Origin: Natronobacterium texcoconense
GTDB taxonomy: Archaea > Halobacteriota > Halobacteria > Halobacteriales > Natrialbaceae
Length of the DNA: 64,000 nucleotides
Assembly (NCBI RefSeq): GCF_900104065.1
Contig: NZ_FNLC01000008.1
Location: 1 to 64,000, forward strand
Direction: 5' to 3'
The position numbers and the translations under genes were made by a program. Below the pieces are notes generated by a model, which saw nothing but the letters and a program-made list of their open reading frames with translations, was not told where the DNA came from and ran no database searches. Shown here piece by piece: positions 53,429-54,712 of the stretch. The first letter of the stretch is position 1. Each line of letters starts with the position of its first letter.

Positions 53429-53509
53429 ATACGGTCTGCTGTAACGATTACCGGCGCAACCGCACGATGATTCGCGGTTGCGCCGTCAATGACTTACAGC
53501 AGTCCGTAT
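53429..53509. repeat. 81-base near-perfect palindrome
   Basis: The left arm begins ATACGGTCTGCTGTAA and ends GGCGCAACCGC; the right arm is its reverse complement with a few changes (ending in CAGCAGTCCGTAT). The loop is about ten bases (ACGATGATTC). It is different in sequence from the 86-base element at 9607 and 60245 but has the same all-hairpin design. Confidence 0.75.
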
Positions 53510-53660: not shown

Positions 53661-53731
53661 GGGACCGTGGGGTAGTGGTATCCTCTGCGGATGGGGTCCG
53701 TAGGACCCGAGTTCAATTCTCGGCGGTCCCA
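53661..53731 (+). tRNA. tRNA-Pro(GGG)
   Basis: A complete cloverleaf without intron. The acceptor stem GGGACCG pairs with CGGTCCC before discriminator A53731. The T stem is CCGAG/CTCGG around TTCAATT. The anticodon stem TGCGG/CCGTA encloses ATGGGGT, giving anticodon GGG (codon CCC). No CCA is encoded. Its 3' end is repeated just downstream, as is common for integration targets. Confidence 0.93.
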
Positions 53732-54030
53732 TTTTCTGTCGCGAACGAACTCGTGAGCGACAGAAACGTGAAGAGCCGAGATTGAACATGCAAGACGCAG
53801 CCCTCGAGCGATCGAAGGGAGCGAGTCGGAACGTCTTGCACCTGTTCAATTCTCGGCGGTCCCACTTCTTCGACGTTGTGAGCGAGGGAGCGACGCGACC
53901 GTAGCGACGCGAGGAGAAGACGTGGGACCACGAGGTATCTCCTTGTGATACCTCGACGGTCCCACTTTTACGAAGTAAAATGGGACGAGGGAGCAGCTTT
54001 GCTGCGACCGTGGTCCCACTTTTTGTGAAG
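53711..54030. repeat. Tandem tRNA-derived palindromes (decayed att sites)
   Basis: The last 21 bases of the tRNA (53711-53731) recur exactly at 53844-53864. An inverted copy with one base missing (GCCGAGATTGAAC, 53774-53786) pairs with it, making a stem of about 24 bases. Further palindromes follow: GGGACC-CGAGGTATC...GATACCTCG-GGTCCC (53924-53964), TCCCACTTTTAC/GTAAAATGGGA (53960-53985) and a last TCCCACTTTTTGTGAA (54014-54029). All look like variants of the tRNA 3' end with its downstream T-run, left by repeated insertion events. Confidence 0.7.
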
Positions 54031-54712
54031 CAACAATGAGATCTATATCGCCGACCATCGCTTCGACACCGTTGCTCGAGACGAGCCCGTAGAACGCTAC
54101 GAGGATCCAACGCCTCGGCTCGAGGCGGAGACCGACCACCTGTTGATGACGACGCTGCGGGACATGGGCGAGACCGCCCGCGGCGTGACGGAGACGGTTG
54201 CGACCAATGGCGGTGCAACAGTGGACGGCCTTGCCGACGAGCTAGGGAAGCATCCCGCGACGATCTACCGGGCGATCAAAGACCTGGACGAGATCCTCGA
54301 GCTGGACCAGGGCGAGATCTCGTTCCGCGCCCGGAAGTACCAGGAGGAACTTCGTGCGCTCGTCGAGTCGGCCGAGTACGCCATCGAGAGTTACGCCGAC
54401 CGAATCCAGCACGTGATGGGGTTAGCGGACCATATCGCCGAATCGTCACCGTTCCAGAAGTGGCTGGCTGAGAACGGGGCCGAGGTCATCTACGACGAAA
54501 ACGGCGAACCCCGACGGGTGCGAATCGACGTGATCCTATCCGAGCTGAAGTCGAGTAGCTTCGAGAACGTCCAGACGGTCGCGGCCGAAGCCCTCGAGAA
54601 GTGGCGGAAGTCGGGCAACGATCCGGCGGTACTCCGGCGGGCCGAGCTGTCTTGGAAGACTCCCGGCGGCGGGACTGAAGTCGGATTCGTTGGCGCGGTC
54701 GCGGACCGCTGA
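54029..54712 (+). pseudogene. 5'-truncated DNA-binding protein gene
   Basis: The reading frame is open from 54029, immediately after a TGA and the last tRNA-derived repeat, without any ATG until TTG 54143/ATG 54146. The protein continues smoothly upstream of that ATG (IYIADHRFDTVARDEPVERY), so its real start seems lost at the junction. It contains a helix-turn-helix (ATVDGLADELGKHPATIYRA, then IKDLDEILEL) and a helical C-terminus. Relatives in haloarchaeal plasmids and proviruses are larger. A shortened protein of 188 residues from 54146 may still be made. Confidence 0.65.

Follow-up and report, generated by a model that had tools for sequence, protein, structure and literature searches.

Probable structured RNA units behind haloarchaeal tRNA genes, each carrying copies of the 3' end of its own tRNA

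What has built the ladder of nested palindromes which grows out of the 3' end of a tRNA-Pro gene in Natronobacterium texcoconense? The window, that is, the whole stretch of 64,000 nucleotides which was analysed, contains this gene at 53661..53731. From the letters alone, an exact 21-base repeat, an inverted copy, a GGGACC...GGTCCC hairpin and repeated units had been listed behind it, and all of them are present. The tRNA-Pro 3' end GTTCAATTCTCGGCGGTCCCA (53711-53731) is repeated exactly at 53844-53864, and when the 299 nt which follow the gene were shuffled 5000 times, the longest chance copy had 12 nt. An inverted copy of the 3' segment, GAGCCGAGATTGAAC, is found at 53773-53787, a hairpin GTGGGACC...GGTCCCAC at 53922-53965, a hairpin TGGGAC...GTCCCA at 53981-54018, and the motif TCCCACTT at 53860, 53960 and 54014. 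The 370-nt region folds with z = -9.0 against dinucleotide shuffles, none of 100 shuffles being as good. The parts are the following.

53661..53731, plus strand: tRNA-Pro(GGG), host gene of the ladder (ARAGORN and the Rfam tRNA model)
53711..53731, plus strand: segment A, the tRNA-Pro 3' end from T-loop to discriminator (has an exact 21-nt repeat partner)
53732..53864, plus strand: unit 1, canonical, 133 nt (matched at 53776-53855 with 54.6 bits, E 8e-9, by the covariance model R1, which was built from 26 units including this one)
53732..53766, plus strand: hairpin 1 of unit 1, TTTTCTGTCGC-GAACGAACTCGTGA-GCGACAGAAA (inverted repeat and RNA fold; this hairpin type recurs behind other tRNAs)
53773..53787, plus strand: A', inverted copy of the tRNA-Pro T-loop and T-stem, with one bulged base (complementary to the first bases of the direct copy, from 53844 on)
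53788..53843, plus strand: conserved core hairpin of unit 1, ATGCAAGACGCAGC...AACGTCTTGCACCT (alignment A1, covarying inner stem)
53844..53864, plus strand: closing part of unit 1, which copies the tRNA 3' end in direct orientation (21/21 identity to 53711-53731)
53865..53965, plus strand: unit 2, short-arm type (fold and repeats; a similar GGTCCCA-closed hairpin stands immediately behind the tRNA-Pro of a relative, G035, locus L020)
53866-53917, plus strand: hairpin 1 of unit 2 (fold and repeats)
53922-53929, plus strand: inverted acceptor strand of unit 2, GTGGGACC (fold and repeats)
Between the inverted acceptor strand and the direct copy, plus strand: hairpin of unit 2, ACGAGGTATC...GATACCTCGAC (fold and repeats)
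53958-53965, plus strand: direct copy of unit 2, GGTCCCAC (fold and repeats)
53966..54018, plus strand: unit 3, short-arm type, a small hairpin TTTTACGAAGTAAAA and then TGGGAC-GAGGGAGCAGCTTTGCTGCGACCGTG-GTCCCA (fold)
54019..54024, plus strand: CTTTTT run after the last unit, a possible transcription end (read from the letters only)

Units 2 and 3 keep the order of unit 1, but their arms consist of the acceptor strand only (GTGGGACC/GGTCCCAC in the one, TGGGAC/GTCCCA in the other). The core GAGCAGCTTTGCTGCGACCG of unit 3 is present twice behind tRNA-Thr(TGT) of the same genome, at C1:1410299 and 1410397. The ladder of the window is one canonical and two short-arm units of a haloarchaeal family which stands behind tRNA genes.

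Whether other tRNA genes of this genome have similar ladders had been named as a check, and most of them do. The genome (G000) has 4.0 Mb; the Rfam tRNA model gives 41 matches in it, and 42 tRNAs entered the copy count. Downstream of 31 of these 42, within 350 bp, we found a repeat of about 21 nt which copies the 3' end of that very tRNA from the T-loop as far as the discriminator. By one and the same criterion such a copy lies behind 18/48 and 13/43 tRNAs of two congeners and behind 15 of the 27 tRNAs sampled from a genome of another family; among the 160 tRNAs of the four genomes, not one has it upstream. The R1 model has 37 matches in the genome of the window; those which were checked stand behind tRNA genes, with a single exception at C1:1003157, for which no tRNA is predicted.

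Read in the sense of the tRNA, the unit has a fixed order: hairpin 1 (often TCGCGAACAAATTCGTGAGCGA in this genome), the inverted T-loop and T-stem (for example GGGATTTGAAC), the core hairpin AGTCGCAGC...GACCGTCT (for example AGACGAGTCGCAGC-hairpin-GACCGTCTCGGCGT) with its conserved internal loop GUCGCAGC/GACCGUC, and the direct 3'-end copy, which opens with GTTCAAATCCC... and continues with the acceptor strand of the tRNA concerned. The unit interval is about 95-180 bp in most cases, and tandem arrays of units are seen. In 158 units from many haloarchaea, identity to the tRNA rises sharply at the T-loop: it is 0.25 at position -2, 0.96 at +1 (the first T-loop base), at least 0.89 up to position 20 and 0.80 at +21, figures somewhat favoured by the fact that units were detected through the direct copy, so that poorly preserved ones are under-counted. 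The alignment of the 26 units of this genome has 19 consensus pairs, 13 of them with double changes.

The arms of the units are copies of the host tRNA and vary between loci. The inverted copy follows the T-loop variants of its own tRNA (38/40 and 18/22 variant bases matched), and its match reaches about 3 bases into the T-stem, above the level found for other tRNAs. The cores are shared in another manner. In one genome (G003) the units of Pro-TGG and Ser-CGA have identical 42-nt cores and unlike outer arms; core identity exceeds 90% in several pairs from different genomes; and orthologous tRNAs within one genus can have different cores (His, Arg-CCT, Ser-TGA).

These facts bear on two ways in which a ladder could arise without any family of units. 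According to the first, ordinary integrative elements integrated one after another and decayed, an att repeat being left each time. Archaeal tRNA 3' ends are standard attB sites (PMC8371274), and direct repeats of the tRNA 3' end are indeed present. However, what lies between the repeats is a single conserved unit with covariation, found behind some 30 tRNAs, each inverted copy fits its tRNA, and the att repeat of a true element in this genome is of another kind. This element, of 63.6 kb, is integrated at tRNA-Glu(CTC) (G000:C2:633080-696726) with its integrase near the tRNA end; its att repeat, roughly 44 bp long, already begins before the T-loop, and no unit accompanies it. We consider serial integration very unlikely indeed. 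The original prediction was borne out in denying ordinary integration, and its proposal that many insertions had decayed at this place is not supported, as the internal parts belong to one conserved unit and the att repeat of the true element is different. According to the second, snap-back DNA synthesis at tRNA genes, with two template switches, produced segment A, inverted A and A again, and hairpin-templated repair keeps the copies complementary. The direct-inverted-direct order is that expected from two template switches, and some 19 nt of the flank at Asn-GTT are similar to the repeated flank which adjoins the tRNA end. Yet this process leaves unexplained the shared core with its covarying stem, the identical cores behind different tRNAs and the strand asymmetry described below, which makes it a highly improbable account.

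Alignment of orthologous loci gave clean empty and filled sites at Asn-GTT, Leu-CAG, Ser-CGA and Gly-GCC. In the first of these, the empty flank begins with what is base 158 in the filled one; at Leu-CAG, the corresponding base is 127. Among 30 genomes, the Leu-CAG site is filled in 10, a genome from another family among them, and empty in 20; all the filled sites contain a single diverged type of unit. Since the filled sites have one unit type across genera, loss accounts for part of the patchiness of the units. Between genera, unit similarity at the filled Leu-CAG sites is 0.75, against 0.76 in the 60 nt upstream of the tRNA; the spacer beyond the unit falls to 0.38, close to what shuffling gives, and identity in the direct copy is 0.98. 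This means that the unit is constrained while it is present. Behind tRNA-Pro, a conserved flank CTCGAAAT (CTCGAAATTATCTAAG) adjoins the tRNA in several genera, and in G035 one short-arm unit stands between the tRNA and this flank. Two relatives (G029 and G026) have integrase-bearing or decayed elements with tRNA 3' sequence and a unit at both ends, which shows that units are also carried by larger elements. One of these is a 3-kb tyrosine-integrase element at tRNA-Gly(TCC) (locus L113, G029:C1:3344600-3348300), with the tRNA 3' half and a unit at both of its ends.

Does the pairing matter in DNA or in RNA? The inner stem of the core is independent of the tRNA sequence. Its two highly variable pairs are Watson-Crick in 91/97 and 94/97 units, against about 38 in shuffled ones; hence the pairing is selected. 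The arms allow the strands to be told apart: where the direct copy has G or T, a transition at the facing base of the inverted copy still permits a G.U pair in the sense RNA, and where it has A or C, such a transition breaks the pair. Transitions leaving G.U were found at 103 of 769 sites and pair-breaking ones at 28 of 969 (odds ratio 5.2); for T-loop positions 2-9 alone the counts are 52/534 and 13/730 (odds ratio 5.9). The sense strand folds better than the antisense strand in 138 of the 158 units and worse in 19, compared with 80 against 13 for tRNA genes and 97 against 100 for tiles of the window taken as controls; for hairpin 1 alone the counts are 105 and 45. Related units were counted separately in these comparisons, so that their P values are inflated. 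From the G.U asymmetry and the bias of the fold towards the sense strand we conclude that it is as RNA, read in the tRNA direction, that the structure of the unit is constrained. Covariation and a strand-specific fold, as expected of a structured non-coding RNA, are both found in the unit. Because of the strand asymmetry the unit is likely to be transcribed, and read-through from the tRNA promoter would be the simplest source of the transcript. One sign fits the RNA reading poorly: G.U occurs in only 2 of 187 paired cells of the inner stem, fewer than one might expect if RNA alone were concerned. Where direct copy and tRNA differ, the inverted copy sides clearly with neither.

The inner stem is also an argument for folded single-stranded mobile DNA, a reading in which a tyrosine recombinase or a similar enzyme inserts an attC-like or CTX-like hairpin at the T-loop of the tRNA and the pairing is kept as a recombination site. 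An inner stem nearly without G.U would suit it, as would the fixed insertion point with a 21-nt repeat, the tandem arrays, the cores common to different tRNAs and the 3-kb integrase element of G029 with its two terminal units. The G.U asymmetry and the better fold of the sense strand are unexpected for DNA, however; the number of units is unrelated to the number of integrases (rho -0.04 over 49 near-complete genomes, counted with the general Pfam integrase family); and the unit has no match in phage records. A recombinase could still be what moves the units, but as the explanation of their structure we hold folded DNA to be unlikely, and the hairpin-using recombinase which had been offered as the other main explanation loses this place on account of the asymmetry and of the missing relation between units and tyrosine recombinases.

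The hairpins might also mark independent terminators, or small genes, downstream of the tRNA, and short T runs do follow some of them. But T runs of at least 4 within 15 nt occur behind 21/77 unit-bearing tRNAs and 21/83 others, and behind the direct copy in 14/77, and a terminator has no need for a copy of the tRNA 3' end. Hairpin 1 was considered as a terminator and rejected, T runs not being enriched. Palindromes which relatives would show to be mere terminators of small genes, named beforehand as the observation which would undo the ladder, were not seen: no gene lies between the units, and relatives have units behind other tRNAs. This explanation is extremely improbable.

How far does the family extend? 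R1 matches occur in 57 of 61 near relatives, with up to 44 per genome, and, in a phylum-wide sample at E <= 1e-5, they are seen in 22 of the 24 Halobacteriales and are absent from the 124 remaining genomes. When 84,980 species genomes were scanned with the core pattern, 53 stretches were obtained, and every named organism among them is haloarchaeal. In Rfam only tRNA reaches the gathering score in the locus. Phage records, as stated, contain no match to the unit, and in plasmid records the only match is the tRNA-Pro itself. A pattern scan of IMG/VR for the 3' border of the unit gave two matches, which were discarded as chance ones without a tRNA. In the open-access papers searched for tRNA-linked haloarchaeal repeats we met with no description of the unit, which does not by itself prove it to be new. 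The units look like a previously undescribed, movable RNA family in haloarchaea.

The core hairpin GGAAGTCGCAGC...GACCGTCTTCC also occurs inside longer intergenic repeats away from tRNAs, for example GACGAGGCTGGGGAGGCGTGAGG. We found such repeats in Halorubrum (L124, L125, L135, L137, L140, L153, L154, L157, L158, L166, L167, L169, L171), in Natrinema and Natronorubrum (L132, L143, L146, L168, L172) and in Halobacterium (L139); in L132 and L146, from two genera, the repeat is flanked by the same two genes. A TnpB gene or omega RNA near these relatives of the core was looked for: none was recognised when their flanking reading frames were inspected by eye, and Rfam gave no match.

Among described things, the nearest are SMR and att repeats. 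SMR-A of Haloquadratum walsbyi is an enigmatic geneless repeat of about 110 bp in tens of copies, with inverted repeats and a strong preference for palindromic targets; it inserts into IS605-type transposons and PATEs without target duplication, and its copies are highly similar (PMC3119063). Like it, our units are haloarchaeal, short, geneless, present in many copies and provided with inverted repeats; unlike it, each of them adjoins a tRNA 3' end, closes with 21 nt copied from its target, is fitted to its tRNA and shows constraint at the RNA level. They share with SMRs and MITEs the nature of a short non-coding repeat in many copies whose presence is strain-specific, but constant terminal inverted repeats of their own are lacking, the arms being copies of the host tRNA. 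With the attL and attR sites of tRNA-integrating elements (PMC8371274) they have in common the duplicated tRNA 3' end, which flanks the insert as a direct repeat, the precise insertion behind the tRNA and the tandem accretion. They differ in having neither integrase nor cargo, in their conserved RNA-like core, in the inverted third copy and in the sharp start at the T-loop; integrase or element genes, or their decayed remains, are absent from the interval except in G029 and G026, where extra DNA lies between two units. The units lack a defining property of SMRs and one of att repeats.

Integron attC sites and other folded single-strand attachment sites are tandem imperfect palindromes whose pairing matters. 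The units resemble them in both respects and differ in that no cassettes lie between units, the arms are specific to the host tRNA, and the pairing shows the strand-specific G.U excess of RNA, which pairing at the DNA level would lack. Small RNAs with tRNA sequence are reported from another haloarchaeon, Haloferax volcanii (PMC3544259), as products of tRNA processing, whereas the units are genomic copies of the 3' end in a separate downstream unit.

We therefore favour, as the probable explanation of the ladder, a haloarchaeal family of structured RNA units which stand behind tRNA genes, are probably co-transcribed with them and spread between tRNA loci. Each unit would likely be transcribed with its tRNA as a long 3' trailer. 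The inverted segment may then capture that half of the spare 3' end which contains the T-loop, since a spare end left free would rival the real one in the folding of the tRNA; the spare 3' end itself may be the unit's own site for 3' processing of the tRNA type. Spread would take place by insertion or recombination with the tRNA 3' end as a homologous, duplicated border, the T-loop sequence on either side of the core forming a natural limit of recombination, and recombination between the two 3'-end copies would cause the clean losses. The units may either serve the host, for instance by tuning tRNA maturation, or be selfish RNA-bearing repeats.

Nothing inside the unit pairs with the acceptor half of the direct copy, and the inverted copy does not account for why this half is kept; in the transcript it is complementary to the 5' acceptor strand of the tRNA alone. 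In minimum-energy folds this strand and the distal copy are paired in 98 of 107 cases, as against 105 of 107 with shuffled units. The folds thus give no support to a designed switch between the two 3' ends, shuffled units having the same preferred fold. A bolder version of the RNA reading, and in our opinion a doubtful one, is that of a mobile element which lives at the RNA level as a 3' extension of tRNA transcripts, whose spare 3' end permits a longer tRNA-like RNA or an on/off switch of maturation, and which passes to other tRNA genes by taking up the 3' end of whichever tRNA becomes its host.

Should the units be transcribed, a structured RNA tailored to each tRNA, of which we found no annotation, would come from a large fraction of haloarchaeal tRNA genes, and new questions would be raised about archaeal tRNA maturation. 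The units would also explain short fragments of tRNA 3' ends which mislead annotation and the finding of element boundaries. They would, moreover, furnish a short repeat with ends fitted to the respective host tRNA, which ordinary transposons and integrative elements lack.

Finally we must note what surrounds the ladder. No further copy of the tRNA end, as a far att site of a larger element would be, exists on the 88-kb contig of the window, and the tRNA-Pro flank conserved in relatives is absent from it. Adjoining the ladder, at 54030-54712, there is a helix-turn-helix-like reading frame, apparently without a natural start. As the frame seems to have no start and the flank of the relatives is missing, the region behind the ladder has probably been replaced. 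Upstream of the tRNA-Pro, at 53429-53509, lies a palindromic repeat ATACGGTCTGCTGTAACGATTACCGG...TTACAGCAGTCCGTAT, which is also found elsewhere in the genome (L107, G000:C1 about 1002880) and in a relative (L114, G023). At the left edge of the window, positions 5-99 of the minus strand contain two CRISPR direct repeats (Rfam CRISPR-DR24).
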